From: Lacibacter luteus
GTDB taxonomy: Bacteria; Bacteroidota; Bacteroidia; Chitinophagales; Chitinophagaceae
Length of the DNA: 64,000 nt
Direction of reading: 5' to 3'
NCBI RefSeq assembly: GCF_004118265.1
Contig: NZ_SDHW01000006.1
Span: 124,001-188,000, forward strand
Part shown: piece after piece, positions 11,112-45,572 of the stretch
Numbering within the stretch: position 1 is the first letter of the stretch
Layout: every line of letters begins with the position of its first letter
Translations under genes and position numbers: made by a program
The notes under the pieces: model-generated
Database searches by the model: none
What the model saw: the letters and a program-made list of their open reading frames with translations, nothing else
Told to the model about the DNA's origin: nothing

Positions 11112-12707
11112 TTATAAGGATAATACCACAAACTCCTGTTCAAGGGAAAGAGAATGTTGATACAACGCATCAATAAAACTCTTTCCTTTTTTTGCATAAA
11201 AGCTTAAGAAACTTTCTTTGCGTTCCTGTAAGCCGTTTCCGGGGAAGAGTTGCTGCTTTACTGTCTGTATTTGTCGTTGTTCATCGGCATATTTTCTTTT
11301 TTCTGCACGAATGATTTTCTTCTCCAGTTCCTGCAAACGATAAATGGCATTCACCTTTAACGACTCCACATGTTGCAGCAACGTAGGATCAACTGCAGAA
11401 GCTTGGGTCTTCAACAATTCATATAACTCTTCAGCTTTTGTTAAGCTGCCATTGAGTTGAATTTTATTTACTGTTGTGCGATGTACATAATCATTCAGCA
11501 ATGCTTCACTGTTCTTGAAAAATTCTTCAACAGTAAAACCAAGTTTCTCCACCTTATCGATCCATTGCTGTTCCGTTACAAGAAAAGAATTCCGAACGAT
11601 CAAAACAGGATACGGTACTTTATAGTGAGTAAACACTTCTTTCAATTCCAGCCAGTAAGCCAATTCACCACCACCACCAATAAATGCAATGTTGGGCAAT
11701 ATGGTATCCTGGTATAGTCCACGCAAGATCACATTCGGACTGAAACGTTCGGGATGTTCCTTCAACTCTTTCAGCATTTCTTCCTTGCTAAACTTAATCG
11801 TTGTGTTTGCAACAGCAAAACCATCCCCATCTGCTTCTATCCGTTCACGCAGGTCTTCATCAAAATAAAATAAATTGATCTCTCTTCCACCCGCCTGCAC
11901 TTTGTAATTCTTTTCAAGCGATTCAATTGTAGCAGCCACATGTTTCGATGAAGAGCGATTGAGCAACTCATCTTCAAACACAGGTATCATCTGTTGCTTC
12001 AACTCTTTTGCATCAGCAATGATGACGATCAAGCCAAATCGTTCAAACAGGAAATGCACAAATGAAAAAGTTGCATCCTGTATGGTTGTTTTTTCTTTGT
12101 AGGCTGTAAGCAATGCATCTACAATTTCTTTTCCATGTGGCTCCACCAGTAATTGTCCACTAATGGCATGAATCAGTTGTGTGATGTTCTTATCGATTAC
12201 CATTTTACCAAACGCACCATTCTGTTGCGTTGCCCATTGGTACTTTACACCGTTCACTGTTGCATAACTCAGCTCTTCAAAATCGGCATCTTCGCTACCC
12301 ATGTAATAAACGGGAACAAAATTGTGTTGTGTTAACTCCTGTTTTAAGGAATCGGCCAGTTTAATAGCATGCAGAATTTTATAAATAAAATACAGCGAAC
12401 CTGTAAATAAATTGGGCTGATGTGCGGTGATAATCGTAAATGTATTTTCCTGCAACAACAGATCAATATTGCGGTTAACCGCTGCCGATTCACTTACTGC
12501 AGCATATTGTTTTTTCAGGTGATCGACCAAAACAGTTCGATTGGTATTAAACGCCGAACGTTGTGCAATGGCTTGCTTAATACCTTCGATGTTTGGGCGA
12601 TGCACATAAAAAGGCTTTAATGCCGCAGCATCATCCAGGTAATCCAAAACTATAGTTGAAAAAGCAGCCGTGTTACGGTAACTGATCCGTTGCGATGTAC
12701 AGTCCAT
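11112..12707 (-). CDS. bshC: Bacillithiol biosynthesis cysteine-adding enzyme
   Basis: Predicted to ligate cysteine to glucosaminyl-malate in bacillithiol synthesis. The Rossmann-like motif TAHQPNLFTGSLYFIYKILH and the VPVYYMGSEDADFEEL segment are typical, as is the C-terminal coiled coil (about residues 430-490: LQELEKKIIRAEKRK). The frame opens at 12767, but ATG 12707 begins MDCTSQRISYRNT, which matches the usual BshC N-terminus (about 531 residues). It lies downstream of the SMP-30-like gene and may be the last gene of the long minus-strand run. Its stop abuts that of the convergent barrel protein with no spacer. Confidence 0.92.
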   Translation of the reverse strand: MDCTSQRISYRNTAAFSTIVLDYLDDAAALKPFYVHRPNIEGIKQAIAQRSAFNTNRTVLVDHLKKQYAAVSESAAVNRNIDLLLQENTFTIITAHQPNLFTGSLYFIYKILHAIKLADSLKQELTQHNFVPVYYMGSEDADFEELSYATVNGVKYQWATQQNGAFGKMVIDKNITQLIHAISGQLLVEPHGKEIVDALLTAYKEKTTIQDATFSFVHFLFERFGLIVIIADAKELKQQMIPVFEDELLNRSSSKHVAATIESLEKNYKVQAGGREINLFYFDEDLRERIEADGDGFAVANTTIKFSKEEMLKELKEHPERFSPNVILRGLYQDTILPNIAFIGGGGELAYWLELKEVFTHYKVPYPVLIVRNSFLVTEQQWIDKVEKLGFTVEEFFKNSEALLNDYVHRTTVNKIQLNGSLTKAEELYELLKTQASAVDPTLLQHVESLKVNAIYRLQELEKKIIRAEKRKYADEQRQIQTVKQQLFPGNGLQERKESFLSFYAKKGKSFIDALYQHSLSLEQEFVVLSL

Positions 12708-12773
12708 ACGTTTTGTAAAATTAGGAACATCCGGACGGTTACAAACAACCGTCCGACAAGTTTTCACATTCCT

Positions 12774-13607
12774 TTATTTTAGTTCGTAGGCTACTACTGT
12801 GTTTCGCCAGAAAGTGGGAACATATACGATGCGTTTCGCAGCATCATAGCCAATATCAGCCGAGTTGATCTTTTGTTCCCTTCCATCAAGGAGCACCTGT
12901 TTCGTTCCATCCGCATTTACATAATAAACAACGCCGCCCCATGTTGATACAAGAAAATCACCACCTGTAATATTTTCGATTCCGTCAGTACCACCTTCCA
13001 TGCCTTCGGCAAGTTTAGAGAGCGAACCATCTTTTTCCATACGGTACATCGTACCCGCATCAAGCACATATAAATTGCCTTTGTGTTTTAATACACCGTT
13101 TGGTCCTTTTAATTTTGAACTATCGAGCAGGATAGATGCTTTGCCTTCTTTCACTTCATATACTCGTCTTGCTTTAGAATCGGTCACATACACTGTTCCG
13201 TTTTCTTCTGTGGATACATCGTTTAAACCTGCTGAACCTTCAATAGCAATACGTTCACTGATCGTTCCTTTATTAATATCGATCACCACCAGTTCAGTAA
13301 GATCAGCAACGTACAATTTGTTTTTATGTAAACCCATTCCCTTTGGTGCATTCAAACCTGTTATCCATTCTGCAGAAATTATTTTTCCATCCAACCCTAC
13401 TTTACCAACGCTTCCTTTTCCATCTTTACCCCAAGGTTCTTTACCATCAATATTTGTGATGTAAAGCACTTTGTTTTTTCCATCGAAATAAACTGATTCA
13501 GGAACTTTTAAAGTGGTGTCTGTTTCCCACAATTTTACCAGTTGATGTTGTGCTGTTGCTGTAAACAGGATTGAAGTAAACAGAAGAACAGATGCAAGCT
13601 TTTTCAT
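12774..13607 (-). CDS. SMP-30/gluconolactonase-like exported beta-propeller
   Basis: A 277-residue protein with a signal peptide (cleaved after about TATAQ, residue 20) and a six-bladed propeller pattern. The three metal ligands known from SMP-30 lactonases appear conserved: E37 (VPESVYF), N170 (GPNGVL) and D208 (GTDGIE). That supports a metal-dependent lactonase or related hydrolase in the periplasm, but a purely structural propeller is possible. It sits 35 bases after the FAD dehydrogenase of the hydroxyproline block. A sugar-lactone substrate would fit the nearby arabinosidases, but no matching sugar dehydrogenase is present. Confidence 0.75.
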   Translation of the reverse strand: MKKLASVLLFTSILFTATAQHQLVKLWETDTTLKVPESVYFDGKNKVLYITNIDGKEPWGKDGKGSVGKVGLDGKIISAEWITGLNAPKGMGLHKNKLYVADLTELVVIDINKGTISERIAIEGSAGLNDVSTEENGTVYVTDSKARRVYEVKEGKASILLDSSKLKGPNGVLKHKGNLYVLDAGTMYRMEKDGSLSKLAEGMEGGTDGIENITGGDFLVSTWGGVVYYVNADGTKQVLLDGREQKINSADIGYDAAKRIVYVPTFWRNTVVAYELK

Positions 13608-13642
13608 ATTATGTATTTGCTGTTTGAAAAGAGAACAGCAAA

Positions 13643-14887
13643 TTATGAAAACCTTTTGGGATTGTAAGGCTTTATATCCACACTAGTCATTTGATCGTTT
13701 GCAATTTCAGCAACCAGCTTGCCGGTTCCTGCGCCAACGCTTAAACCGATCATAGCATGACCGGTAGCAATGATGGCGTTCTGTTTTATTTTTCCGATAT
13801 AGGGCAAGCCATCAGCCGAACAGGGACGGTAACCATACCAGATATTTTCAGGCGAAGGAACAGGAATTTTAAACTGCGGAACAAAACGTTCAACCGCATT
13901 TAAAATACCTTCCACTCTTTTATAACGGGGAGGCGTTTTTGTGGAGGTAATTTCCATCGTACCACCAAAGCGGATCTTGTTTCCATCCATTGGCGTGATG
14001 GCTACACGACCTTCCTGCAATACTGCCGGATGATTGAATGTAAACGGCGAATCCTCTAACGTAACAGAGTAACCTCTGCCGGGCATGAGCGGCAAATTAA
14101 GATCAAGCTTTGCAGCCATTTCTCTCGACCATGAACCGGTAGCGATCACTACCATATCTGCATCGTAACGTTGATTGTTGCAAATAACAGATTTGATCTG
14201 ATCATTCTTCATTTCAAAACCGGTTACTTCCTGTTTGGAAATTAACTGTACGCCTTTTTGCTGAAGGATGTTGATTAATCCTTTCATTAATTTCTGCGGA
14301 TACAAATGTGCATCGCATTTAAAATACAATGCACCACGTATGTTGAGTTCAACCTGTGGTTCCATTGCCTGTACTTCCTCTTTCGATAACATCACCGCTT
14401 CCAGTCCAAGCTTTGCTGCATCTGCTGCTGTGTGATGTGCATGTTCTTCATTGGCTTCTGTTTGAAACATTTCGAGCAGGCCTTTCTTTTCATACGCAAA
14501 ATCAAAACCCGGAATGTTTGTCCACTCTTCATACAACTGCTGACTGAGCAACGCAATATCACGGAGAGGGATAGCCGATTCAGCAACATGCTTCGTTGTC
14601 GCACTTTTCATAAACTTCAATCCCCAGGAAATAAGTGCAGCATTTAAACGTGGCTCCACATAAAACGGGCTTCTTGAATTCCACATCCATTTCAAACCCT
14701 GCGTAACAATACCCGGTGTTGCCAACGGCACAAAATGGCTGGGACAAACATAACCTGCGTTGCCATACGAGCAGTTATCGGAAAAATCATCTTTATCCAG
14801 TACCGTCACATCCCACCCGCTTTGTTGCAGATAGTAAGCAGAACTTAACCCGATAATGCCGCCGCCGATAACTATTGCTTTGCCCAT
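13643..14887 (-). CDS. FAD-dependent D-amino acid dehydrogenase (DadA family), predicted D-hydroxyproline dehydrogenase
   Basis: The N-terminus has the FAD-binding dinucleotide fold (IVIGGGIIGLSSAYYL), and the C-terminus has the DAO-family tail IIATGHAMIGLSVGAGTGK. Length 414 residues. DadA-type enzymes oxidise D-amino acids and pass electrons to the respiratory chain. In hydroxyproline degradation, the D-epimer made by the 2-epimerase is oxidised by such an enzyme to 1-pyrroline-4-hydroxy-2-carboxylate, so the neighbours point to cis-4-hydroxy-D-proline as substrate. Its ATG lies one base after the stop of the GH146-like gene, so the two are surely cotranscribed. D-alanine or D-proline remain alternative substrates. 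Confidence 0.85.
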   Translation of the reverse strand: MGKAIVIGGGIIGLSSAYYLQQSGWDVTVLDKDDFSDNCSYGNAGYVCPSHFVPLATPGIVTQGLKWMWNSRSPFYVEPRLNAALISWGLKFMKSATTKHVAESAIPLRDIALLSQQLYEEWTNIPGFDFAYEKKGLLEMFQTEANEEHAHHTAADAAKLGLEAVMLSKEEVQAMEPQVELNIRGALYFKCDAHLYPQKLMKGLINILQQKGVQLISKQEVTGFEMKNDQIKSVICNNQRYDADMVVIATGSWSREMAAKLDLNLPLMPGRGYSVTLEDSPFTFNHPAVLQEGRVAITPMDGNKIRFGGTMEITSTKTPPRYKRVEGILNAVERFVPQFKIPVPSPENIWYGYRPCSADGLPYIGKIKQNAIIATGHAMIGLSVGAGTGKLVAEIANDQMTSVDIKPYNPKRFS

Positions 14888-14888
14888 T

Positions 14889-17243
14889 TTATTGTTGCTC
14901 TTTTATTGTTCGTACGCCAAAAACACGACCTGCTGTTTTACCATGATTCGCATCGATCTTTACTGTGATCTTTGTTTTTCCGGCGATCATGTTTGCAGGC
15001 AGTTTATATTCCATATCATAAAACTTACCCGTCTTGCCGCCTTTCCATTCTACAGTTACAAGTTTTATCCCATCAACCAGAATATCAAATACACGATCCT
15101 TGTCATCGCCGATATAAGTTAACAGCAAGGTATTATTTACAGATGCATCCACTTTCATTTCAAACTCGAAATAGTTATTACTTCTTGCTTCACGACCCAT
15201 ACGATCCATTGCATTGCTTACATAAGAACGTTCTGTTGCTTTGAGATTGTGATCACGCTCAGGTTGCATTTCGCCCACACGGAAGTGATCGATTGTTCTG
15301 TTTTCAATTTCCTGCACACGCTTTTTCTCCGCTTCATAATCGGCCTGCAGTTTGGTAAACTCATCAGGTGTAAAATAATCCCAGTACACACTGTAATACT
15401 GATCGTATGTTTGATAGAACGGGATCAGTTTTACATCAAATGGTTTACCCACTCCTTTCATTTGAAATTGTAAAGATGAAGTTGACTGAATCCAATCATT
15501 CACATTACGGTTTGTAGTTAGCAACACCGGCACACCAACAACAGGGTCGGGTTTTTCTTTGCCCAGCAAACCTGCCAATACCAACGGACCGTACTTGAAT
15601 GCAATGCGGTTAGGATTATCCGGCATTGCTTCAGTGTAGAGATTCATATCGAGATCAACTGTTACCACATCGCCATTTTTCCATGCACGAGTTACAGATA
15701 AATAACCTGCTGCATCTGCCTCTGTTTTTACTGATCCGTTGTTTACTTTGACAACAGCAGTAGCTACACTCCATGATGGCTTACGTATTTTGAGTGTAAA
15801 CGAAGTTAGTGTTGAAGCAGTAACAACCAGTTTTGCCTGTTTGCTTTCAGGTATATAGTTTGTTTGTGTAATGCGGATGTTTTTTTCCTTCCAGTTCAAT
15901 ACAGAAGGAATGAAAAGATTGACATAGAGACTATTCTTTCCATCGTAACTGTAGATCTGCTCAGCATACTTTGCATGATTTTCGATACCGCTACCCACGC
16001 AACAGGTGAACGTATTAAACTGGTCGCTGAATTGTTTTTTTGTTCCCATGCGCAGCGGAACAAAATAAGTCATCATACCGTTCTCAGGATTCTGCGACGC
16101 AAGAATATGATTGTACAGAGCACGTTCGTAATAATCCATTAATTGTGCCGAAGGTTGCCAGGCAAACAAATGTCTTGTCAGCTTCAGCATATTGTAAGTG
16201 TTGCAGGTTTCGCAGGTGTTATCGCTCAAACGATCGTTGAGTTTACCGGCTTCTCCACAATACTCATAGTTACTGTTACCACCAATGACATAGCTGTGGT
16301 TGTGTACCATCGTTTCCCAAAAGAAAGAAGCAATGGTCTGATCACTTGTATTCCCTGTTAATTCGTATTGTCTTGCGCTGCCAATTGCTTTTGGCACGTT
16401 GGTGTTGCTGTGTTTGCCGGGCAAGGGATCAATGCGTTGCGCCAGTTTGCCCATTACAAACTCATCGTAAAACTTATACGACAGATCAAGATATTTTTTA
16501 TTGCCGGTGAAGGAATAAATATTCGCCAGCACATCGTTCATGCCGCCGTATTCACAGTTCAACATTTTTAAACGTGTTGAATCGGGAAGATGATTGACAG
16601 TGTTATATGTCCAGTCGGCCATTCCTGTAACCAGCTTTAATGCTTTATTGCTGTTGCAATACAAATACGCATCGCACAAACCTGCCATTACTTTATGCAC
16701 CGTGTACCAGGGACTCCATCCGCCATTCAGATCAAACCCGGATGATTTGATTTCTCCTTTTGCTACTTTACCAAAAATGGAATCTTCTTTTGGTATGGCG
16801 CCAATATAACCGGTCTTGCGTGCAAGCTGACAACGTTCCAGTTCAGCAACGATATAATCAATACGTTTCTTGAACTCCGCATTGCCTGTTGACACATACA
16901 TCATCGATGCCGCAGATAAATAATGCCCCAATGTATGACCTGATAATCCATCACTCTCCCATCCGCCATAAATCGAATCTTTCACCGGCAGTCCTGCATT
17001 TTTATAAAAACGATACAACAAACGATCAGCACTTAATGAAAGTAGGTAAGCACTATCGAGCTGCATAGCTTTTGTAAACGGACTTGGCAACAACTTCACA
17101 TCATTCAACGGAAAAGCAAATGCATTCACCTTTACAACAGGTTGCACTTTTACTTTTGCGTTCTTCTTTTCGGGAATGTATGATTGTGCAGTGCAAAAAA
17201 CCAATGAGGACAAAAGAGCAACTGTGCAGATTAATTTCTTCAT
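14889..17243 (-). CDS. Beta-L-arabinofuranosidase-family glycoside hydrolase (GH146-like)
   Basis: A 784-residue exported protein (signal peptide about 1-19) of the DUF1680 clan that holds GH127 and GH146. The zinc/catalytic cluster of these cysteine glycosidases can be placed: E345 and C347 in TCETCNTYNM, and C414-C415 in FTCCVGSG, one of these being the nucleophile by homology with HypBA1. E327 or E331 is a candidate acid/base. An (alpha/alpha)6 barrel spans about 50-440, then beta-sandwich domains, and a C-terminal domain of about 130 residues (from about 650). Members remove beta-linked L-arabinofuranose from plant glycans. It is followed after 14 bases (upstream side) by a GH127-like paralogue. 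Confidence 0.88.
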   Translation of the reverse strand: MKKLICTVALLSSLVFCTAQSYIPEKKNAKVKVQPVVKVNAFAFPLNDVKLLPSPFTKAMQLDSAYLLSLSADRLLYRFYKNAGLPVKDSIYGGWESDGLSGHTLGHYLSAASMMYVSTGNAEFKKRIDYIVAELERCQLARKTGYIGAIPKEDSIFGKVAKGEIKSSGFDLNGGWSPWYTVHKVMAGLCDAYLYCNSNKALKLVTGMADWTYNTVNHLPDSTRLKMLNCEYGGMNDVLANIYSFTGNKKYLDLSYKFYDEFVMGKLAQRIDPLPGKHSNTNVPKAIGSARQYELTGNTSDQTIASFFWETMVHNHSYVIGGNSNYEYCGEAGKLNDRLSDNTCETCNTYNMLKLTRHLFAWQPSAQLMDYYERALYNHILASQNPENGMMTYFVPLRMGTKKQFSDQFNTFTCCVGSGIENHAKYAEQIYSYDGKNSLYVNLFIPSVLNWKEKNIRITQTNYIPESKQAKLVVTASTLTSFTLKIRKPSWSVATAVVKVNNGSVKTEADAAGYLSVTRAWKNGDVVTVDLDMNLYTEAMPDNPNRIAFKYGPLVLAGLLGKEKPDPVVGVPVLLTTNRNVNDWIQSTSSLQFQMKGVGKPFDVKLIPFYQTYDQYYSVYWDYFTPDEFTKLQADYEAEKKRVQEIENRTIDHFRVGEMQPERDHNLKATERSYVSNAMDRMGREARSNNYFEFEMKVDASVNNTLLLTYIGDDKDRVFDILVDGIKLVTVEWKGGKTGKFYDMEYKLPANMIAGKTKITVKIDANHGKTAGRVFGVRTIKEQQ

Positions 17244-17257
17244 GATACTTATCAGTG

Positions 17258-19228
17258 TCAGTAATTAATTTTTACATCTTTAATTGTAGAAGGCAGCCAT
17301 ACCTGCATTTCGTTCTTACCACGGTTAGCCCATGTGTAATAAGGAATGGCAACGATCTTTCTTTTTTCTGTTCTGATCGATAAACCATCTTCACCAACAA
17401 GTACAACCGGCACTTCTGCCGCTAATGCTTTCACCGGTTCATCCATGATTTTATAATCGATGGTTTCAAACTTCGTATCGGCAGGCAACACAATATTCCA
17501 TGCTTTGTTATTGTTATCTGCACCTTCAACACAATATACAATTGGTCCACGTTGAATGGCAATGCGGTTATTATTCTGTTTTAATTCAGCTTTTGCAGTA
17601 ATAAGCTTTACATCCATTGGCAGGTCTAATTCAACTACATCGCCTTTCTTCCATTCATTTGTAATCGACAGGTAACCGTTTTCATACGAACCGCTGAAGC
17701 TCTTTCCATTAATTTTATAACTGAAGTGGAATGGTTCACCATCATCTGTTGTTATATTATACAAACCATCGATATCAAGATGATTAAACGCCCAATCAGG
17801 CATGTTGATATACAATTTGAAAGTTGATTTTTTCTCTTGCGGATTTACAATAATCTTCACCTTTCCCTCCCAAGGATAATTTGTTTCCATCTTTACATCC
17901 ACTTTTGTTTTGGGCAACTGAATACTTGTGTTGCTACCTACAAACAAATTCACATAAATACCATCGTCGCTTTTTGCATAAATATAATCGCCAAGCGATG
18001 CCACCATGCGTGCAATATTTGCAGGGCAGCAAGCTGTACCAAACCATTCTCTCCGTTGATGCTGTCCACGTGATGCTAACGGATTGCCATAAAAGAAACG
18101 ATCACCTGTTAAACTCAATCCATCCAATGCACCATTGTATAAACTGCGTTCCAATACATCCATATACATCGCATCGCCTGTGAGTGCATTCATCCGTTGA
18201 TTCCAGAACACCATACCCACACTTGCACAGGTTTCGCAATAAGCCTGTTCATTCGGCAAATCATAATCCTGGCTAAATCCTTCATTGCTTCCTGCAGAAC
18301 CAATACCACCGGTGATGTACATGTTACGATACACTACGTCCTGCCAAACTGTTTTCATTGCTCGGATATAATCTACATCACCTGTTTGTGCAGCTACATC
18401 AGCCGCACCTGTGTACATATACATGGCACGTACTGCATGACCTGTAATTTGTGTTTGCTCTTTCACAGGAAGAATATCCTGCGCATAAGCAGTGTCTTTC
18501 CAATCGGTCCATGTATAACCTTTTGCTAAACGTTTACCACGTTCGCTTAATAACCAATCAGCCAGCTTTAAATATTTTTCATTCTTTGTTGTCTTGTACA
18601 ATTTCACCAATGCTAATTCCAATTCCTGGTGACCCGTTACCCAATGACGTTTACCCGGTCCAAACAATGCATCAAAATGATCGGCCCACTTGATACATAC
18701 ATCTAAAAATTTTCGCTTGCCTGTTGCATTGTAATAAGCAACCGCCGCTTCAATCATATGACCTGCATTGTAATCTTCATGCATACTCATATCGGTATAA
18801 CGATCCTGCAAACCTTTCAATGTGTACCATGTGTTGAGGTAACCATCCGGTTGTTGTGCAGCTGCAATTTTATCGATCCACTCATCGCATTTCTTTTCCA
18901 TCTCTGCATTGGGATGCGTCTTTAACGAATACGCCATTGCTTCCAATGCTTTGAACACATCACTGTCATCATAAAAAATACCTTCATGCGGTTCACCTTT
19001 TTTTCGTGCAACACGTTCAAAATTGCGAAGACGTGGTGTTGCCACTTCTGTTTGATAAATACAGGCAGCTAATGTTTTGGTTGCCACCTTATCGATCTTC
19101 GGTTTCCAAAATGCATCTGTAACATTTACCTGCGAAAAATTGATGAACTCAATTTTCTGCAGGTTGTTTTGCGCAGATAGGCTTAATTGAAATAGGCAAA
19201 CAATCAAAAGGAAAATTATTTTTTTCAT
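17258..19228 (-). CDS. Beta-L-arabinofuranosidase (GH127-like)
   Basis: A 656-residue exported enzyme; I choose ATG 19228 (MKKIIFLLIVCLF signal peptide) over the earlier frame opening at 19270. Numbering from 19270, the active-site set of the Bifidobacterium enzyme HypBA1 is all present: E330 (GSNEGF, proposed acid/base), E346 and C348 (YCETCAS) and C414-C415 (TACCPAN), with the 16-residue spacing between the two glutamates conserved. HypBA1 cleaves beta-1,2-linked arabinofuranose and arabinofuranosyl-hydroxyproline, which makes this gene the link between the sugar and the hydroxyproline enzymes encoded next to it. Substrate remains inference. Confidence 0.9.
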   Translation of the reverse strand: MKKIIFLLIVCLFQLSLSAQNNLQKIEFINFSQVNVTDAFWKPKIDKVATKTLAACIYQTEVATPRLRNFERVARKKGEPHEGIFYDDSDVFKALEAMAYSLKTHPNAEMEKKCDEWIDKIAAAQQPDGYLNTWYTLKGLQDRYTDMSMHEDYNAGHMIEAAVAYYNATGKRKFLDVCIKWADHFDALFGPGKRHWVTGHQELELALVKLYKTTKNEKYLKLADWLLSERGKRLAKGYTWTDWKDTAYAQDILPVKEQTQITGHAVRAMYMYTGAADVAAQTGDVDYIRAMKTVWQDVVYRNMYITGGIGSAGSNEGFSQDYDLPNEQAYCETCASVGMVFWNQRMNALTGDAMYMDVLERSLYNGALDGLSLTGDRFFYGNPLASRGQHQRREWFGTACCPANIARMVASLGDYIYAKSDDGIYVNLFVGSNTSIQLPKTKVDVKMETNYPWEGKVKIIVNPQEKKSTFKLYINMPDWAFNHLDIDGLYNITTDDGEPFHFSYKINGKSFSGSYENGYLSITNEWKKGDVVELDLPMDVKLITAKAELKQNNNRIAIQRGPIVYCVEGADNNNKAWNIVLPADTKFETIDYKIMDEPVKALAAEVPVVLVGEDGLSIRTEKRKIVAIPYYTWANRGKNEMQVWLPSTIKDVKINY

Positions 19229-19311
19229 GATACCAGCTATTGAATTACTATTATTCATTTGTTGTGTCACTCACTTATGCGTACTGTATTTCTATTCTGC
19301 ATTCGCCAGGC

Positions 19312-19374
19312 GTTCCTATGGAACTCCAATACATGTACATGTTTTTATCTACCGATCAAATGTTCCTACGGAAC
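19312..19374. repeat. REP-like pair of short palindromes
   Basis: GTTCCTATGGAAC (19312-19324) and GTTCCTACGGAAC (19362-19374) are two near-identical palindromes 50 bases apart; between them lies the palindrome ACATGTACATGT (19331-19342). It sits in the 157-base gap between the YciI-like and GH127 genes and resembles dispersed intergenic repeats of Bacteroidota. It could also affect the stability of the long transcript. Confidence 0.6.
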
Positions 19375-19385
19375 AAATTCTGTTA

Positions 19386-19676
19386 CTAAACATCCGCTAC
19401 TTTAAACGGCTTCACTTCTATCGATTGCCAAACACCATCTTTTATGTATGGTTCATTTGCATACCAATGATCAAACTCTTCTTTTGTTTCAAACTGTACG
19501 ATCATGATCGAGCCACGCATCTTCCCTTCTTCATCAAGCGTAGCGCCACCGATCACTAAATTATCTTGCTCTCTTAATTTCTTTGCACCTGCTAAATGAA
19601 ACGGACGCACTTCCATTCTTCTTTCAAGCGCACCTTCATCTGTTCCGTCTTTTGCGATGATGACATATTGTTGCAT
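19386..19676 (-). CDS. YciI-like protein
   Basis: A 96-residue single-domain protein with the ferredoxin-like YCII pattern: MQQYVIIAKDGTDE opening, a conserved histidine in VRPFHLAGAKKL, LVIGGATLDEEGKMRGSIMIV in the middle and a final EVKPF strand. YciI-like proteins are small dimers with a His/Asp pair and largely unproven functions. It lies between the hydroxyproline epimerase gene (93 bases away) and the GH127 gene, in the same direction, so it probably belongs to the operon; a role on a pathway intermediate is possible but not shown. Confidence 0.8.
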   Translation of the reverse strand: MQQYVIIAKDGTDEGALERRMEVRPFHLAGAKKLREQDNLVIGGATLDEEGKMRGSIMIVQFETKEEFDHWYANEPYIKDGVWQSIEVKPFKVADV

Positions 19677-19769
19677 AACTTTTTAATTTATATGACAATA
19701 AAAGTCAGGTATTCAAATAAGTTGGCTCAGTGTGTTTGATGGCCTCCTTTCAGGGAGGTCGGGAAGGTT

Positions 19770-20855
19770 TCAGATCACCTGGAATCCATACGCATAAGGA
19801 TCATCTTCTTTATCGATGCTGATGGTATTGTAACCATAGATCTTTGCCCAACCTTCAATACCCGGACGGATGGCCTTGATGCCATTCACTTCCAACTCTT
19901 CTTCAATGGTACCATTGAACTTACTGCCAATGATGCTTTCGTGAATGAAATGATCGCCTTTTTTCAGTTTGCCTTTTGCATACCATTGCGCCATGCGTGC
20001 TGAAGTACCAGTGCCACATGGACTACGGTCAATTGCTTTATCGCCATAGAACACAGCATTGCGTGCAGTTGATGTTGGATCGATCACCGAACCCGCCCAC
20101 AAAATATGACTGCAGCCATTGATCGTTTCATCTTGCGGATGAACGAATGTATATTTTGCATTGATGTTCTTTCGCAATTCTCTTGCCCAAGCAATTAATT
20201 TATCAGCTGCATAATGTTCCAGTCCTTTGAAATTTTTCTGCACATCAACGATGGCATAAAAATTACCGCCATACGAAACATCTACAACCAACTCTCCTAA
20301 CTCAGGACAATCAACCGTTAATTCTGTTGAATGTAAATAAGCAGGAACGTTTGTCAACTTCACGCTCGTAACCTTTGAAGAGATGTGGTGGTGTGTCGTC
20401 CGTGGTCTATCGTCCGTTTTGTATTCTATCATCACCAATCCCGCCGGCGCTTCCATCCGAATAACACCTGGCGTTTTCGGAACGATCAATCCTTCTTCTA
20501 CTGCAATAGTGATAGTGCCAATAGTACCATGTCCGCACATGGGTAAACAGCCACTTGTTTCAATGAACAACACAGCTACATCATTCTGCGGATCATGTGG
20601 TGGATACAAAATACTCCCACTCATCATATCATGTCCACGTGGTTCAAACATGAGCCCTTTGCGGATCCAATCATACTCTTTTAAAAAGTGTTGTCGCTTT
20701 TCACTCATGTTCTTTCCTTCCAATGCTGGACCACCTTCTGCAACCAAACGCACAGGATTGCCGCAGGTATGTGCATCCACACAATGAAACACCCATCCCC
20801 CAAAACGATTGAGCGAACTGTTGGGATATTTTTTTACGATCGGGCTTGTTGCCAT
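19770..20855 (-). CDS. 4-hydroxyproline 2-epimerase (proline racemase family)
   Basis: A 361-residue enzyme of the proline racemase family. Both catalytic cysteines are present: C107 in PMCGHGTIG and C280 in DRSPCGTGTSARM. Retention of the second cysteine argues for a racemase/epimerase rather than the trans-3-hydroxyproline dehydratase branch, where it is replaced by threonine. With the neighbouring DadA, DapA-family and semialdehyde dehydrogenase genes, the expected reaction is trans-4-hydroxy-L-proline to cis-4-hydroxy-D-proline. Its ATG overlaps the stop of the upstream BNR gene by one base (TAATG), so translation is coupled. Confidence 0.92.
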   Translation of the reverse strand: MATSPIVKKYPNSSLNRFGGWVFHCVDAHTCGNPVRLVAEGGPALEGKNMSEKRQHFLKEYDWIRKGLMFEPRGHDMMSGSILYPPHDPQNDVAVLFIETSGCLPMCGHGTIGTITIAVEEGLIVPKTPGVIRMEAPAGLVMIEYKTDDRPRTTHHHISSKVTSVKLTNVPAYLHSTELTVDCPELGELVVDVSYGGNFYAIVDVQKNFKGLEHYAADKLIAWARELRKNINAKYTFVHPQDETINGCSHILWAGSVIDPTSTARNAVFYGDKAIDRSPCGTGTSARMAQWYAKGKLKKGDHFIHESIIGSKFNGTIEEELEVNGIKAIRPGIEGWAKIYGYNTISIDKEDDPYAYGFQVI

Positions 20856-23164
20856 TATTGTAAACTGTTTAAATCGTCGAGCACATATACGCCACGGCCG
20901 TATGTGCCGATCACTAATTTTTTATCTCTTGGATGAATGAACAGATCGTTCACCGAAACTGCTGCAGGAATAGTTCCATTGATCGCTATCCATTTCTTAC
21001 CGCCATCTTTACTCATGTACACACCAAAGTCTGTTCCGCAGAATAAAGTATTTGCATTGTCGGGATGTTCTGCAATTACATTCACAGGCGATGCAGGCAA
21101 GTTTGCAACGATTGGTTTCCATGTTGTACCATAATCATCACTTACATACAAATAAGGAGTATGATTATCTGCACGACGATCATTCAATACCACATACACT
21201 CTTGATGACTTGAATGTTGATGCAGCAATCTTTGCCACATGTTTATTGTAAGGAAGTCCTCTTGTAATTTCCTTCCAGCTTGCGCCATCATTTGTAGTCA
21301 ACCAAACACGGCCATCATCCGTACCTGCATACAATACACCTGCCTTATCACCTTCTGCAACAGCCGTGATGGCCTGGTGATAAATTAAATAAGGATATAC
21401 CCCATTACGTTGCTTGCTGTTGTACGAGAGATCGCTGCTGATCATCTTCCATGTTTCGCCGCCATCTTCTGTTTTATATAAATGCTGCAAACCATGATAC
21501 AATACTTTATTGTTATACTTACTCATGATGGTTGCTGCCAGCCATTCGCCACGCAGGGAATCAATACGACCCACATCAAATTGCTTGAACTGTTTCGTGC
21601 CTTCTCTTCTTCCTTTACTCATATCGGTACGCATCAAACGACCATAGTACGATGAAGCATAAACAATATTTGCATTCTCCGGATCAACTGCAATTTGTGT
21701 TCCTTCGCCACCTGGTGCCATGCGCCACGGACGAAGTGTTGTATCAGCTGCTGTTCCAAACGTGTTGCTTACATTGCCACTCATTGTTCCTTCATCTTGT
21801 ACTGCACCAAAAATGTTGAAGGGCTTTTGCATATCGTATGCTACTGTATAGAATTGTGTAGTAGGAATTTCATCAAAGAAGTTTTTCCATTTCGCTCCTC
21901 CATTATACGTAATGGAAACGCCACCATCATCACCCATGATCATACGATCAGGATTTTCTTCATCGATCCACAATGCATGATGATCGCCATGTGTCCACTC
22001 ACTTTGTTTATCTGTTGCGTCCCAAACCCTCCATGTTTTACCGCCATCTTCGCTGATCGCTTTCTCTACACCAAAAGCATATACACGGTTTTCATTTTTC
22101 GGATGTACACGTATCTGACTAAACACCCAACCATAGGTTCCTGAAAACGGTTTTAAGAAATCATGCACTTCTCCCATCTTCTCCCAGCTTTCACCTTTGT
22201 TGTTGCTGCGATAGATAGCCGCACCGATCACTACTTTCTGCACCTGTCGTTCGTAGCTATCTGTTTCACCGGGATTTGGATCACGCTTTTTATTATGATC
22301 ATCCACAAATGCATACAAGACATTCGGATTGGAATGACTAACGGCAAGGCCTATCCTTCCTGTGAGTTTTGTATCGGGTAAACCGTTGGAGATCTTTTTC
22401 CATGTTTTGCCGCCATCAGTTGTTTTATAAATATAGTCACCGTCTTCAGGCATCGGATCGCTCCAGCGTTTGCGGATGCGGTTCCACATACTTGCATACA
22501 GTGTATTTGGATCGTTTGGATCCATCACCAGGTCAATACAACCACTCTTCTCACTTTCAAACAAAATATTTTTCCATGTTTTACCGCCATCAGTTGTAAG
22601 ATAAACGCCACGTTCTTTGTTATACGTCCACTCGTTACCACTTGCAGCCACATAAACAGTGTTTGCATTTTTTGGATGAACGATGACACGTGCAATAGTG
22701 CCCGTATTTTCCAAACCAATATGCTGAAAGCTTTTGCCTGCATCCGTTGATTTATACATACCAATGCCAGGCAAGGATGCACGAAAAATATTTGCTTCAC
22801 CAGTACCAACGTACAACACATTGCTGTTTGATGGAGCTAATGCAATATTGCCGATGGATTGTGTTGCTTCTTTGTCAAAGATGGGTTTCCAGTTTGTACC
22901 GGCATCTTCTGTTTTCCATAAACCGCCTGTTGCAAACGCAGCATAAAACACATTGGGATTACCAGTTATGCCCACCACATCGGTGCTACGGCCACTTCGG
23001 TTATCGGGCCCCATTAAGCGCCACTGCAGATTTTTATACGGCGATTGCTGTAACAACAATTGCTGCTGTTTAAATGCCGTCATCCTTTGCGCACCGGTTG
23101 TGCTTTTGTTTTGCTGAGCTGCCACAGCAAGTGGCAGCATCAGCAATAAACAGATTTTTCTCAT
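20855..23164 (-). CDS. Exported BNR/Asp-box repeat propeller (sortilin/GH74-like)
   Basis: A 769-residue protein with a signal peptide (about 1-17, MLPLAVAAQQ) and at least ten Asp-box-like repeats of the form S/T-x-D-x-G-x-x-W, for example TEDAGTNWKP, TTDGGKTWKN, TEDGGETWKM and SKDGGKKWIA. The length and repeat number fit two seven-bladed propellers as in VPS10/sortilin-like and GH74-like proteins. No catalytic residues can be assigned with confidence, so binding to a glycan or peptide is as likely as hydrolysis. It is embedded in the hydroxyproline gene run and is translationally coupled to the epimerase, suggesting a role in handling the extracellular substrate. Confidence 0.85.
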   Translation of the reverse strand: MRKICLLLMLPLAVAAQQNKSTTGAQRMTAFKQQQLLLQQSPYKNLQWRLMGPDNRSGRSTDVVGITGNPNVFYAAFATGGLWKTEDAGTNWKPIFDKEATQSIGNIALAPSNSNVLYVGTGEANIFRASLPGIGMYKSTDAGKSFQHIGLENTGTIARVIVHPKNANTVYVAASGNEWTYNKERGVYLTTDGGKTWKNILFESEKSGCIDLVMDPNDPNTLYASMWNRIRKRWSDPMPEDGDYIYKTTDGGKTWKKISNGLPDTKLTGRIGLAVSHSNPNVLYAFVDDHNKKRDPNPGETDSYERQVQKVVIGAAIYRSNNKGESWEKMGEVHDFLKPFSGTYGWVFSQIRVHPKNENRVYAFGVEKAISEDGGKTWRVWDATDKQSEWTHGDHHALWIDEENPDRMIMGDDGGVSITYNGGAKWKNFFDEIPTTQFYTVAYDMQKPFNIFGAVQDEGTMSGNVSNTFGTAADTTLRPWRMAPGGEGTQIAVDPENANIVYASSYYGRLMRTDMSKGRREGTKQFKQFDVGRIDSLRGEWLAATIMSKYNNKVLYHGLQHLYKTEDGGETWKMISSDLSYNSKQRNGVYPYLIYHQAITAVAEGDKAGVLYAGTDDGRVWLTTNDGASWKEITRGLPYNKHVAKIAASTFKSSRVYVVLNDRRADNHTPYLYVSDDYGTTWKPIVANLPASPVNVIAEHPDNANTLFCGTDFGVYMSKDGGKKWIAINGTIPAAVSVNDLFIHPRDKKLVIGTYGRGVYVLDDLNSLQ

Positions 23165-23189
23165 TTTGGTTTTTGCTTTTACGATTGCT

Positions 23190-24674
23190 TTATAGTACAG
23201 AAGCAGATGGGGTATTATTCACTGTACGAATAATCCCCAACGGGTTTTCATTTTTCAATTCATCAGGCAACAAACTGTTGCTCCAGTTCTGGAATGCAAT
23301 GGGGCGTGCAAAACGTTTAATGCCATCGGCACCCACACTTGTAAAACGACTGTCGGTTGTTGCAGGAAACGGACCACCATGTTGCATACTCAAACAAACT
23401 TCCACACCTGTTGGCACACTGTTGAGAATAAAACGGCCGCAGATATTTTTCACTGCTTCTACGAGTTCATCGTGTTGCAGCATATCGTTCTCTGTTGCCA
23501 TGAGTGTTGATGTTAACTGTCCATCGAGATGTTGTGCAACAGCCAGCATTTCTTCTTTGTTTGCACAACGGATAATGAGTGAATAAGGACCAAACACTTC
23601 CTGGTGCAACACAGGATTGTTTAAAAACGCCTGTGCACTTGCGGTTGCAACAGTTGGTAATCCTTGGTTTTCTTCTACTGCTGTTTCACTTTCCGCAACG
23701 AGATGTACATCGTCCTGCAACAATGCATTTCCTTTTTTCTCTTTGTATGCGCTCACAATACCTGCATGCAACATGGCCGCAGGTTGTATTTTTTGTATAG
23801 CCTTACCCAGATCATGTGTGAAGGTTTTCAACGCTTCACTTTCAATACCAATGATGAGACCGGGATTGGTACAGAATTGTCCGACACCTAATGTAATAGA
23901 ACCGGCATACATCGTTGCAATATCTGTTGCTGATGTAGTTAATTTTTCCTGTAACAGGAACACAGGATTCACACTGCCCATTTCTGCAAATACAGGAATA
24001 GGCTCTTTGCGTTCGTTCGTCCATTTGAATAATTGCATACCTGCTCCATACGATCCCGTAAAGCCAACTGCTTTTGTATGCGGATGCTGTATCAATGCTT
24101 TTCCAACTTCAATACTTTTTCCGTACACATGTTGAAACACCGCTTTTGGTAAATTGAGATAAGCCACAGCTTTATGAATAGCATCAGCAACAATCTCCGA
24201 TGTATGCTCATGCGCAGGATGTGCTTTTACAATAACCGGACAACCCGCAGCCAATGCACAAGCCGTATCGCCACCTGCAGTTGAATACGCAAATGGAAAA
24301 TTACTTGCACCATACACCACTACCGGACCAAGCGGCACCAACATTTTTCTGATGTCGGGCTTTGGTGGATTTTTATCAGGAATCGCTGTATCAATTCTTG
24401 CTTCGAGCCAATCGCCACGTTCGCATGCATCTGCATAGCTGTTCAATTGAAAAATAGTACGGCCACGTTCGCCACGTAATCTTGCTTCAGGCAAATTGGT
24501 TTCACGCATGGCCACTTCAATTAAATGATCGCCACAGTTTTCCAGTTCCTTAGCAATGGCACGCATCAATGCTGCTCTTTCTTTTAAACTTTTTTTGCGA
24601 TACACATGAAAAGCTTTCCATGCTTCCTGCATAGATGCATCAATTTCCTGTACTGGAGTGTCGGTATAACTCAT
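23190..24674 (-). CDS. Aldehyde dehydrogenase, predicted 2-oxoglutarate semialdehyde dehydrogenase
   Basis: A 494-residue NAD(P)-dependent aldehyde dehydrogenase. Visible residues: cofactor-pocket N125 in YGASNFPFAYS, K150 in VIVKAHPAH, general base E231 in VFAEMGSVNPVF and catalytic C268 in GVGQFCTNPGL. The SNFPFA/AHPAH style is that of the KGSADH branch, which oxidises 2,5-dioxopentanoate (2-oxoglutarate semialdehyde) to 2-oxoglutarate. This is the last step of hydroxyproline degradation and also of the oxidative pentose and glucarate routes. It lies 17 bases after the DapA-family gene. Confidence 0.9.
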   Translation of the reverse strand: MSYTDTPVQEIDASMQEAWKAFHVYRKKSLKERAALMRAIAKELENCGDHLIEVAMRETNLPEARLRGERGRTIFQLNSYADACERGDWLEARIDTAIPDKNPPKPDIRKMLVPLGPVVVYGASNFPFAYSTAGGDTACALAAGCPVIVKAHPAHEHTSEIVADAIHKAVAYLNLPKAVFQHVYGKSIEVGKALIQHPHTKAVGFTGSYGAGMQLFKWTNERKEPIPVFAEMGSVNPVFLLQEKLTTSATDIATMYAGSITLGVGQFCTNPGLIIGIESEALKTFTHDLGKAIQKIQPAAMLHAGIVSAYKEKKGNALLQDDVHLVAESETAVEENQGLPTVATASAQAFLNNPVLHQEVFGPYSLIIRCANKEEMLAVAQHLDGQLTSTLMATENDMLQHDELVEAVKNICGRFILNSVPTGVEVCLSMQHGGPFPATTDSRFTSVGADGIKRFARPIAFQNWSNSLLPDELKNENPLGIIRTVNNTPSASVL

Positions 24675-24691
24675 TGTTCGTTTTTAGTGGT

Positions 24692-25588
24692 TTACAAAAC
24701 AGGTCGTGCAGCGATACCATCGTTAATGATCTTCAAAATACGATCCCGCTCACTACCCTGTAAAGTTAAACGAGGACCACGAACATATTCACTTCCGATT
24801 CCTGTTTGTGTAGCCGCCAGTTTAATATATTGTACCAGCTTTGGATGAATATCCAATTCAAGCAAAGGCATGAACCAACGATAAATGGCCGCAGCTTCTG
24901 CTATCTTACCTTCTTTCACCAGGTTGAAAATAGTAACGGTTTCTTTCGGAAAAGCGCAAACCAATCCTGCCACCCAACCATCAGCACCCAAACACAATTC
25001 TTCCACTGCCAATGTATCAACACCACAAAGAATTTTTAAGCGACCTCCAAAACGATTGATCAATCGTGTTACGTTGGTTACATCTCTTGTGCTTTCTTTT
25101 ACGGCGGTGATGTTGCTGTATTCGATCAGTTCTTCAAACATATCCAGTGTAACATCAATTTTATAATCAACCGGATTGTTGTAGATCATGATCGGAAGAT
25201 CAGTTGATTTGGCAATGGTTTTAAAATATTCCACTGTTTCCCTGTCGTCACTTTTGTAACGCATGGGCGGTAACAACATCAAGCCTGCGGCTCCCCATGC
25301 TTTTGCATTCGCTGCCTGTTGCACTGCATCTTTGGTAGTGCTTTCAGCAATATTCATGATCACCGGAATTTTTCCGTTGAGATATTTAATTGCATGTTTG
25401 ATGAGTTGTTCTTTCTCTTCGGCAGTAATGGTACTTGCTTCGCCCAGCGAACCACCAATGATCACACCATGTACACCGGCATCGAGTTGTGCCTGCAGAT
25501 TTTTTTCAAACATCGGCAGATCAATTTCCTCGTTAGCTGTAAACGGTGTAAGCAAAGCGGGGAACACCCCTTTCCATTCAAATGACAT
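24692..25588 (-). CDS. DapA/NAL-family lyase, predicted 1-pyrroline-4-hydroxy-2-carboxylate deaminase
   Basis: TIM-barrel Schiff-base enzyme of 298 residues from ATG 25588 (MSFEWKGVFPALLTPF); the frame opens at 25633, but the extra residues are not family-like. Schiff-base lysine K164 (TAVKESTRD) and catalytic Y136 (IMIYNNPV) are present. Among family reactions, the neighbours single out deamination of 1-pyrroline-4-hydroxy-2-carboxylate to 2-oxoglutarate semialdehyde. 2-Keto-3-deoxy-arabinonate dehydratase, a close relative that yields the same product, is the main alternative, given the arabinosidases nearby. It is the first gene of the minus-strand run. Confidence 0.87.
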   Translation of the reverse strand: MSFEWKGVFPALLTPFTANEEIDLPMFEKNLQAQLDAGVHGVIIGGSLGEASTITAEEKEQLIKHAIKYLNGKIPVIMNIAESTTKDAVQQAANAKAWGAAGLMLLPPMRYKSDDRETVEYFKTIAKSTDLPIMIYNNPVDYKIDVTLDMFEELIEYSNITAVKESTRDVTNVTRLINRFGGRLKILCGVDTLAVEELCLGADGWVAGLVCAFPKETVTIFNLVKEGKIAEAAAIYRWFMPLLELDIHPKLVQYIKLAATQTGIGSEYVRGPRLTLQGSERDRILKIINDGIAARPVL

Positions 25589-25610
25589 AGTAAAAAATTT
25601 TAAACGAAAA

Positions 25611-25663
25611 TAACCGATGCCGTAAACAAACAAAAAGCCGTTCTTAACGGATAGTTTACCGAT
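25611..25663. promoter_or_regulatory. Candidate AraC-type operator and divergent promoter region
   Basis: In the 152 bases between the divergent deaminase and AraC genes, TAACCGAT (25611-25618) and TTACCGAT (25656-25663) form a direct repeat with 45-base spacing, flanking a palindrome CCGTTCTTAACGG (25638-25650). On the minus strand a TATTTTCG near 25600 with TTTG about 18 bases upstream resembles the -7/-33 elements. AraC proteins bind direct repeats, so these are plausible sites; all of this is by eye. Confidence 0.4.
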
Positions 25664-25740
25664 TTTAACCTGAAATAATTTTACATTTACAAAAAGGGCT
25701 AATATTGGCTAAACACGAAATATGTCCTGAATAAAATCTG

Positions 25741-26619
25741 ATGAAAGTTGTACAGTTTACCATACCGGTTGCAGGCGACAGTTCCATTGTGGTGCAGGAA
25801 GATGTACTGCCGCATTTTTATGTACATCTTCATCGCCATCCTGAAATGCAGTTGACATGGATAAGAGAGGGCAGCGGCACATTGATAGCGGGCAACTACA
25901 TGCAGCCATTTAAAACGGGTGACATTTATCTGATTGGTGCCAATCAGCCACATGTGTTTAAAAGCGATCCTGATTATTTTGATAAACGCAGAAAGAAAAC
26001 CGTACATGCGTTGTCGATCTTTTTTCATCCTGCACAATTAGCTAACACCCTGCTGGCCCTGCCCGAAACAAAAGCTATTCGCCGGTTAATTGAACAAAGT
26101 CAGTCGGGCATACAGATCAATGCAAATGCAGCAGTAAAACTCACCAACGAAATATTGCTGGTGCAGCGAACCAAACAAGGTTATCAATTAGCTTCATTTA
26201 TTCACCTGTTGCAAAGCATCAGTTATACAAAAGGAAACCGTGTGCTTGCATCGGCTTCTGCAGGTTATACCATTTCCGATACGGAAGGTTTGCGTATGAA
26301 TGATGTGTATCGTTACACGATGGAGCATTTTTCTGAACACATCAGTCTTGAACAAATTTCTTCAGTGGCACATTTGACCGTTCAGGCTTTTTGTCGCTAC
26401 TTTAAAAAGCATACCCGTAAAACCTATGTGCGTTTTTTAAACGAGATACGCATTAACGAAGCCTGCAAAAAAATGACGGGAGTAAATGGGTTAACGATCT
26501 CCTCCGCTGCTTATGAATGTGGTTTCAGCAGTGCGGTGAGTTTTAACCGTGTGTTCAAGCAGGTAACCGGTGTGTCGCCTTCCCGTTATATGGCCGATTA
26601 CCGGCAGCAGGTAAACTAA
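25741..26619 (+). CDS. AraC-family transcriptional regulator
   Basis: A 292-residue regulator with an N-terminal cupin-like sensing domain (HFYVHLHRHPEMQLTW, then GDIYLIGANQPHVF) and a C-terminal double helix-turn-helix (residues about 195-290: ISLEQISSVAHLTVQAF and SSAAYECGFSSAVSFNRVF, ending VTGVSPSRYM). It is transcribed divergently from the hydroxyproline/arabinoside genes and is the obvious candidate for their regulator; the inducer might be hydroxyproline, a pathway intermediate or arabinose. Confidence 0.92.
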   Translation: MKVVQFTIPVAGDSSIVVQEDVLPHFYVHLHRHPEMQLTWIREGSGTLIAGNYMQPFKTGDIYLIGANQPHVFKSDPDYFDKRRKKTVHALSIFFHPAQLANTLLALPETKAIRRLIEQSQSGIQINANAAVKLTNEILLVQRTKQGYQLASFIHLLQSISYTKGNRVLASASAGYTISDTEGLRMNDVYRYTMEHFSEHISLEQISSVAHLTVQAFCRYFKKHTRKTYVRFLNEIRINEACKKMTGVNGLTISSAAYECGFSSAVSFNRVFKQVTGVSPSRYMADYRQQVN

Positions 26620-26684: not shown

Positions 26685-26742
26685 ATCCTTTTGAGATGAT
26701 CTCTGCTGATGATTACTTATCTTTAATAAAGATTGTTTGCAC

Positions 26743-29276: not shown

Positions 29277-29316
29277 CCGGTTGCTGTTCACCTTACATCA
29301 CACAAAATTTTTAAGC

Positions 29317-44338: not shown

Positions 44339-44460
44339 TTCCCCTTTTTACATCAGTTTGATTTAATTACCCGGATAGTTCCAGGTAAACCTCATTTCCA
44401 ATACGCATTGGCGTTATGCCAACTGCACAGTTTATTATTCATCAACAAAACAACTATTTA

Positions 44461-45546: not shown

Positions 45547-45572
45547 GGCAGGAACCAAAAAACAAAAGAACA

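Follow-up and report, generated by a model that had tools for sequence, protein, structure and literature searches.

Why should genes for beta-L-arabinofuranosidases lie among genes for the breakdown of an amino acid? The question is raised by a stretch of 64,000 nucleotides from Lacibacter luteus (contig NZ_SDHW01000006.1, positions 124,001 to 188,000; hereafter the window, from a genome of 5.07 Mb), in which predicted enzymes of glycoside hydrolase (GH) families 127 and 146 are interleaved with genes for the degradation of hydroxyproline (Hyp). Among the plant sources of Hyp, extensins and related glycoproteins are major ones. From gene content and its recurrence in relatives, we consider it probable that this operon serves to use both halves of plant Hyp-arabinosides, those of extensins and related hydroxyproline-rich glycoproteins. 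The exact substrate may be extensin arabinosides or another beta-L-arabinofuranoside. A first-pass annotation of the window had proposed that arabinose is stripped from Hyp and the amino acid then burnt; the co-occurrence of these genes in relatives, set out below, supports that proposal, in which the joint function is something we infer.

All genes named here are open frames at the coordinates given, and their families were assigned by Pfam and NCBIfam profile scans. Genes for all four steps of Hyp degradation are present on one strand (-), in the families first ascribed to them: a 4-hydroxyproline 2-epimerase (19770..20855); an FAD enzyme of the D-amino acid oxidase (DAAO) superfamily, predicted to be a cis-4-hydroxy-D-proline dehydrogenase/oxidase (13643..14887; PF01266); an enzyme of the dihydrodipicolinate synthase (DHDPS) superfamily, predicted to be a pyrroline-4-hydroxy-2-carboxylate deaminase (24692..25588; PF00701); and an aldehyde dehydrogenase (ALDH), predicted to be a 2-oxoglutarate semialdehyde dehydrogenase (23190..24674; PF00171). 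Family domains and matches to solved structures likewise confirm that a GH127 beta-L-arabinofuranosidase (17258..19228, -; PF07944/PF20736/PF20737) and a GH146-type beta-L-arabinofuranosidase with a C-terminal DUF6805 (14889..17243, -; PF07944, PF20736, PF20620) are interleaved with them. For the GH127 and DHDPS-type genes the longest frame starts a little further upstream (19270 GTG and 25633 TTG, respectively); the starts implied above, which are those of the first-pass annotation, are internal ATGs. Judged by eye, both arabinofuranosidases have signal-peptide-like N termini, as do the sortilin/BNR and SMP-30-like proteins described later, and the Hyp enzymes do not.

Is the pathway indeed one for trans-4-hydroxyproline (t4Hyp)? 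The epimerase passes NF010578 (571.7 bits, cut-off 376). It does not reach the thresholds of two further 4-hydroxyproline epimerase models, nor those of the NCBIfam models for proline racemase and 3-hydroxyproline (3-Hyp) dehydratase, and among solved chains it is closest to a proline racemase. The DHDPS-type protein is under the NCBIfam DapA cut-off (178.3 versus 206.15 bits), the best NCBIfam matches of the DAAO-type protein are to D-amino acid dehydrogenase, below cut-off, and the nearest solved chains to the ALDH are 3v4c and 1eyy. None of these three proteins passes any listed NCBIfam equivalog cut-off, and their assignments are at superfamily level. Key residues were found in the epimerase (Cys107, Cys280), the DHDPS-type enzyme (Lys164, Tyr136) and the ALDH (Cys268, Glu231); the catalytic roles that we give to them, and to the arabinofuranosidase residues below, are in part presumed. 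Active-site residues had been called intact in every enzyme, and we see them in these three and in both arabinofuranosidases; in the DAAO-type protein it is the FAD-binding motif that was checked.

With such scores the epimerase-DAAO-DHDPS-ALDH set might serve another substrate, be it proline, 3-Hyp or D-amino acids, and the assignment to Hyp might be wrong. That the epimerase passes one 4-hydroxyproline epimerase model and fails two, that its nearest solved relative is a proline racemase and that its three partners stay below every listed equivalog cut-off are what this explanation can draw on. We nevertheless find it barely credible. The epimerase reaches neither the proline racemase nor the 3-Hyp dehydratase cut-off, from which a set dedicated to proline or 3-Hyp was judged unlikely, and its two catalytic cysteines argue against the usual dehydratase type. 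Moreover, DAAO, DHDPS and ALDH together have been published as the signature of the t4Hyp pathway (PMC4113996; statements on papers cited by PMC number refer to the portions of them that were available, unless the main text is named). Among 121 epimerase loci of relatives (8 from the same genus and 113 others; 91 are at least 19 kb long), a DAAO gene lies near the epimerase in 100, a DHDPS gene in 98 and an ALDH gene in 88. The window holds what marks a trans-4-hydroxyproline cluster, namely a two-cysteine epimerase clustered with partners from the DAAO, DHDPS and ALDH superfamilies.

What might the two arabinofuranosidases act on? The GH127 protein (PF07944, 348.4 bits) aligns best to 6ex6, then to 4qjy and then to 3wkw, the last being the Bifidobacterium-type chain. 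For the GH146 protein the best solved match is 5opj, presumably BT0349, over residues 43-779, almost the full protein with its C-terminal domain (499.5 bits). Catalytic and zinc residues are present in both (Glu316/Glu332/Cys334/Cys400/Cys401 in GH127; Glu327/Glu345/Cys347/Cys414/Cys415 in GH146), and all five are invariant in the locus homologues of at least 560 amino acids (34/34 for GH127, 25/25 for GH146). The GH127 protein has the catalytic domain, the zinc-binding Glu-Cys-Cys-Cys set and the glutamate that we take to be the acid/base in this family, and the GH146 protein is closest to 5opj with its C-terminal domain and has its zinc set intact. This Glu-Cys-Cys-Cys set is the one described in PMC10850190. 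An identity as aceric acid hydrolase was rejected (444 bits for GH127 and 84.7 for GH146, cut-off 950). The shared architecture suggests that substrates would be small in this case as well. Arabinose is freed by HypBA1 from beta-Ara2 and from Ara1-3-Hyp, and by XeHypBA1 mainly from Araf-beta-Hyp (PMC6085000), and XeHypBA1 and Bll4HypBA1 are placed among GH146 enzymes for Araf-beta-Hyp (PMC10850190). Given these specificities and this placement, the GH127-GH146 pair would fit Araf-beta1,2-Araf-beta-Hyp as a substrate.

The first-pass annotation had staked its proposal on conserved co-occurrence of GH127/GH146 with the Hyp genes in relatives, and such co-occurrence is found. In a sample of 244 Chitinophagaceae genomes (117 with the epimerase, 127 without), 48/117 genomes and 29/58 genera, window included, have GH127 and/or GH146 no further than ~10 kb from the epimerase. 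For 8 copies (the number in the window genome) strewn randomly over 5 Mb, ~3.7 genera would be expected, and somewhat more where genomes have more copies. Within the 121 loci there are 40 with GH127, 27 with GH146 and 48 with at least one of them. Counted the other way, 28/45 GH127 orthologues (at least 55% identity), 16/67 more distant GH127s and 29/46 GH146s are within 20 kb of an epimerase. This amounts to 73/158 for all arabinofuranosidase matches, against 1/118 for the decoy PF00221 (aromatic amino acid lyase). GH146 is present in 46/117 genomes with the epimerase versus 6/127 without (Fisher 1.4e-11), and a GH127 orthologue in 45/117 versus 14/127 (Fisher 5e-7), both values ignoring kinship and being indicative only. 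Lastly, when 1687 frames from 122 loci, 49 of them bearing GH127 or GH146, were clustered and the representatives scanned with Pfam and NCBIfam, no glycosidase cluster was as common next to the epimerase as GH127 (40 of 122 loci) and GH146 (26 of 122), the glycosidase-like cluster that ranks after them being found in 10. The association of these arabinofuranosidase genes with Hyp genes exceeds chance.

Has this association arisen more than once? Trees, which were quick builds without bootstrap, divide the GH127s of Hyp loci into two subtypes. Over the 106 rows of the GH127 tree, 55 of them Hyp-linked, the Hyp label has to change 12 times; well-supported branches force at least 9 of these changes, and 0/500 label shuffles gave as few as 12. 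The GH146 tree (56 rows, 38 Hyp-linked) has 10 changes, 6 of them forced. On the epimerase tree (104 rows) there are at least 29 changes, only 6 forced, with 47/101 inner branches unsupported and 19/500 shuffles as low. The GH module seems to have been gained and lost often. Frozen synteny was rejected as the whole cause, the label being scattered over the epimerase and GH trees. Three enzyme lineages, GH146 and the two GH127 subtypes, are linked to Hyp genes in several layouts, in which they stand between the epimerase and DAAO genes, after the DAAO gene or on the opposite strand. Chitinophagaceae bacterium IBVUCB2, whose record is not labelled a MAG, carries the complete series DapA-ALDH-epimerase-GH127-GH146-DAAO (L147); in Ferruginibacter paludis CECT 8366 the visible stretch shows ALDH-GH127-DAAO without an epimerase (L159).

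Loci in which GH146 is away from the epimerase were also inspected (20 of 23). Seven of these 20 adjoin another Hyp-type gene, and 2/20 lie in L-arabinose operons. In three of the seven, AraC-DapA-DUF885-GH146 clusters of one genus (L234-L236), GH146 stands beside the deaminase gene, apart from the epimerase. Moreover, GH146 and GH127 are fused in one frame of 1592 amino acids (L237:9025-13800), and in reverse order in another genome in a frame of 1568 amino acids (L246:5161-9867), the GH146-like half of which is 32% identical to that of the window. Fusion in both orders suggests that the two enzymes act on one substrate.

Several observations weigh against a joint function, and they bear on two other explanations. 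Within the genus the epimerase is found in 9/14 genomes, and presence of the GH pair beside it is clean, with 5/9 loci having it (window included) and 4/9 lacking it. BshC and a PF04116 gene, neither with any obvious link to the pathway, are as common beside the epimerase as GH127 is (41/121 each, against 40/121). As these two are just as frequent, proximity alone proves no function. GH127 and GH146 might therefore be a mobile or ancestral cassette that hitch-hikes in the Hyp operon without a functional link to it. That a cassette should have become linked as GH146 and as two GH127 subtypes, in differing positions and orientations, and to other Hyp genes in split loci, and that it should do so in 29/58 genera when ~3.7 are expected and the decoy gives 1/118, makes this quite improbable.

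The second explanation is one of niche co-regulation. Here Hyp would be taken up free from any source, the glycosidases would act on other plant beta-L-arabinofuranosides, such as those of arabinogalactan proteins (AGP), arabinan or rhamnogalacturonans, and the shared operon would reflect common usefulness on plant debris. Characterised GH127 and GH146 relatives do act on arabinan, AGP and aceric-acid substrates, with BT0349 encoded in a rhamnogalacturonan I (RG-I) locus and BT3674 acting on arabinogalactan (PMC10850190), and the best solved matches, 6ex6 and 5opj, are not among the enzymes known to us for Hyp-arabinosides. Nor is GH127 exclusive to Hyp loci: in public genome contigs, among the best 80 of 156 relatives, 51 loci (37 of them at least 15 kb long) have no Hyp gene and 29 do, the former including Larkinella, Spirosoma and Cyclobacteriaceae. 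Other points tell against a joint function more generally. Neither Hyp nor arabinose genes are seen at 11 of the 20 epimerase-distant GH146 loci, some of which are on short contigs. Outside the family, GH127/146 lies within ~7 kb of the epimerase (judged by eye) in only 3/55 epimerase-bearing genomes, all from one other family in which 5 genomes have the epimerase; a spread of the pairing through the phylum was rejected on this rarity. Finally, as first reported, the window block has no transporter, SusC/D pair or peptidase; domain scans gave none among the ten operon and regulator proteins and the YCII protein described below. A SusC/SusD pair was also absent from the operon, regulator and flanking proteins scanned from 7922 to 29276, in which two flanking frames, like that at 29257-30312, had no Pfam match.

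Some relatives' Hyp loci hold accessory genes of kinds that a use of Hyp-arabinosides would predict, namely for L-arabinose catabolism, proline-type peptidases, GH51 enzymes, an amino-acid permease and SusC/D. Numbers of loci, with the GH-bearing ones in brackets, are 18 (7) for DUF885, 8 (4) for M24 aminopeptidase P and 5 (3) for an S9 protein like dipeptidyl peptidase IV, with 25 loci, 11 of them GH-bearing, having at least one of these peptidases. For the APC amino-acid permease they are 13 (8), for aldose 1-epimerase 9 (5), for an AraD-type aldolase 5 (2), for SusC 7 (3) and for SusD 5 (2). GH-bearing loci have no surplus of peptidase, SusC/D or AraD-type neighbours, which would also fit the use of collagen Hyp. 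Only a GtaA-type protein, a TIM-barrel glycosidase and perhaps the permease lean towards GH-bearing loci. Other glycosidases do occur in the neighbourhood, as niche co-regulation would have it, but each type is sparse: there are two GH51-type clusters with 4 loci apiece, GH95 has 4 and a GH27-type protein 3 (L085, L097, L110). At L079 a GH51-type alpha-arabinofuranosidase, which joint use of Hyp-arabinosides would also predict, stands between the epimerase and GH127.

That GH-bearing loci are no richer in most accessory genes slightly weakens the case for Hyp-arabinoside use and slightly strengthens that for niche co-regulation. We still regard the latter as unlikely: GH127 and GH146 are the commonest glycosidases beside the epimerase while other types are sporadic, and GH146 also accompanies the deaminase gene where that is apart from the epimerase.

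Two of the neighbours are observations in their own right. The TIM-barrel glycosidase, a protein of 352 amino acids of an uncharacterised type (L146:11695-12750 and relatives), was seen in 10 Hyp loci, of which 8 also have GH127/146; its predicted fold (pLDDT 69.9) resembles GH5-type TIM barrels (TM ~0.55). The GtaA/DUF5127/DUF4964 six-hairpin protein (L026:1061-3439, L191:6394-8583) was seen in 7 Hyp loci, each of which also has GH127/146, as well as in 11 GH127 loci that show no Hyp gene; a PDB sequence search gave no solved relative for it.

How, then, would an operon for Hyp-arabinosides work? Short arabinosylated Hyp peptides or Hyp-arabinosides would first reach the periplasm. There, the exported GH127 would trim beta-1,2-linked arabinofuranose and the exported GH146 would take the last arabinofuranose off Hyp, substrates that we infer from characterised GH127 and GH146 enzymes, with export judged by eye. 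Hyp and L-arabinose would then enter the cytoplasm, perhaps by way of transporters such as the amino-acid permease and the sodium:solute symporter found in some relatives' Hyp loci. The 2-epimerase, FAD dehydrogenase, DHDPS-type deaminase and aldehyde dehydrogenase, all encoded here, would convert Hyp to 2-oxoglutarate. L-arabinose would pass through the araB-araD-araA operon, homologues of which are found together with a symporter gene on another contig of the same genome. The AraC-family regulator, which has a cupin-type sensor domain and a similar gene in 40/121 relatives' loci, probably senses Hyp or arabinose.

In two relatives the two catabolic routes meet. At L134 and L135, araA, araB, araD and a sodium:solute symporter gene are divergent from the Hyp genes (L135:1-5562), with an aminopeptidase P and with GH127 or GH127 plus GH146 as the arabinofuranosidases. 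The L135 proteins exceed their cut-offs (AraA 803 bits versus 622, AraB 706.8 versus 428, AraD 346.5 versus 257). With this gene order, one locus could use both products of an arabinosyl-Hyp. We tentatively suggest, as a possibility of which we are less than convinced, a hitherto undescribed class of extensin (hydroxyproline-rich glycoprotein) utilisation loci in Chitinophagaceae that dismantle a structural glycoprotein of plants to sugar and modified amino acid and catabolise both. The window would be its compact core, and the fullest forms would have SusC/D uptake, proline-type peptidases, alpha- and beta-arabinofuranosidases, and arabinose and Hyp catabolism. The lack of enrichment among accessory genes weakens the case for this class as well.

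The remaining genes of the block complete the picture. The divergent regulator (25741..26619, +) and the single-strand block behind it (11112-25588, -) are as first described. Read from the promoter side, the order is DHDPS-type, ALDH, BNR, epimerase, YCII, GH127, GH146, DAAO-type, SMP-30-like and BshC. Intergenic gaps from the DHDPS-type gene through BshC are -1 to 157 bases, so the block is likely to be one transcription unit, as predicted from this spacing. The sortilin/BNR beta-propeller protein (20855..23164, -; PF15902/PF02012) has a similar gene in 15/121 loci, the YCII-domain protein of 96 amino acids (19386..19676, -), absent from the first-pass annotation, occurs in 7/121, and the SMP-30/arylesterase-like protein (12774..13607, -; PF08450/PF01731) in 20/121. 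BshC, for bacillithiol synthesis (11112..12767, -; TIGR03998 above cut-off), is probably unrelated to the pathway despite lying on the same strand and 6 bases away. A promoter scan turned up 36 sites where 39.7 were expected, hence no excess. Terminator-like sites numbered 21 against 13.9 expected (sd 3.2), and none was taken as functional.

Beyond the block, the PF04116 gene, of fatty-acid-hydroxylase/sterol-desaturase type (26737-28023), adjoins the AraC gene; in many relatives it lies antisense within the Hyp operon, between the ALDH and epimerase genes. The window also has two sets of resistance-nodulation-division (RND) efflux genes (4867-9235 and 44416-50214), each with an AcrB-type protein and OEP and the second also with a HlyD-type adaptor. 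A frame for a 23S rRNA-intervening-sequence (four-helix) protein (9313-9714) lies between efflux genes and a purE-type gene.

How does this locus compare with known systems? In Bifidobacterium longum, hypBA1-hypBA2-hypAA, which acts on beta-arabino-oligosaccharides of hydroxyproline-rich glycoproteins, likewise includes a GH127 enzyme for the same linkage class (PMC7263609, PMC5928203). There, however, the sugar is imported in the form of a disaccharide and the available text describes no Hyp catabolism, whereas the window glycosidases appear to be exported and are encoded together with a full Hyp pathway. GH121, the family of its beta-L-arabinobiosidase partner, was not seen among the annotated neighbours, in which no search aimed at GH121 was made. 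In Xanthomonas euvesicatoria, XeHypBA1 (GH146 according to PMC10850190) prefers Araf-beta-Hyp (PMC6085000), and we liken it to the window GH146 by family. A prolyl oligopeptidase gene, now broken, adjoins xehypAA (PMC6085000). The accessible parts of that paper mention no Hyp-degradation genes with XeHypBA1/BA2/AA, and its GH121 and GH43 partners were not seen at the window operon, again with no search aimed at them.

Polysaccharide utilisation loci of Bacteroidota similarly gather exported glycosidases in one regulated locus. These have SusC/D, whereas the window block has none and half of its locus is amino-acid catabolism; a SusC/SusD pair does occur in the Hyp loci of 5 relatives, of which 2 also have GH127/146. 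For Latescibacteria, an earlier in-silico proposal invoked GH127 and peptidases for extensin degradation (PMC4454575). That study is a genome-wide inventory, and in the portion available the sole epimerase mentioned is for amino sugars, with no Hyp catabolism or gene linkage. Bacterial clusters of 4-hydroxyproline 2-epimerase (4HypE), DAAO, DHDPS and ALDH have a set of enzyme superfamilies identical to that of the window (PMC4113996), and the main text of that paper names no arabinofuranosidase (0 occurrences).

Parts and pathway were thus already known. We found no description of arabinofuranosidases linked to Hyp catabolism in the open-licence PMC literature, in the portions available, which does not prove absence, and what appears to be new is that cleavage of Hyp-arabinosides is coupled to the catabolism of Hyp. 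If the proposal is true, it would suggest physiological substrates for many GH127 and GH146 enzymes and is directly testable. Moreover, whereas the bacterial systems described for Hyp-arabinosides recover, as far as the available texts go, only the sugar, this operon would give bacteria a route to recover both carbon and nitrogen from plant cell-wall protein.

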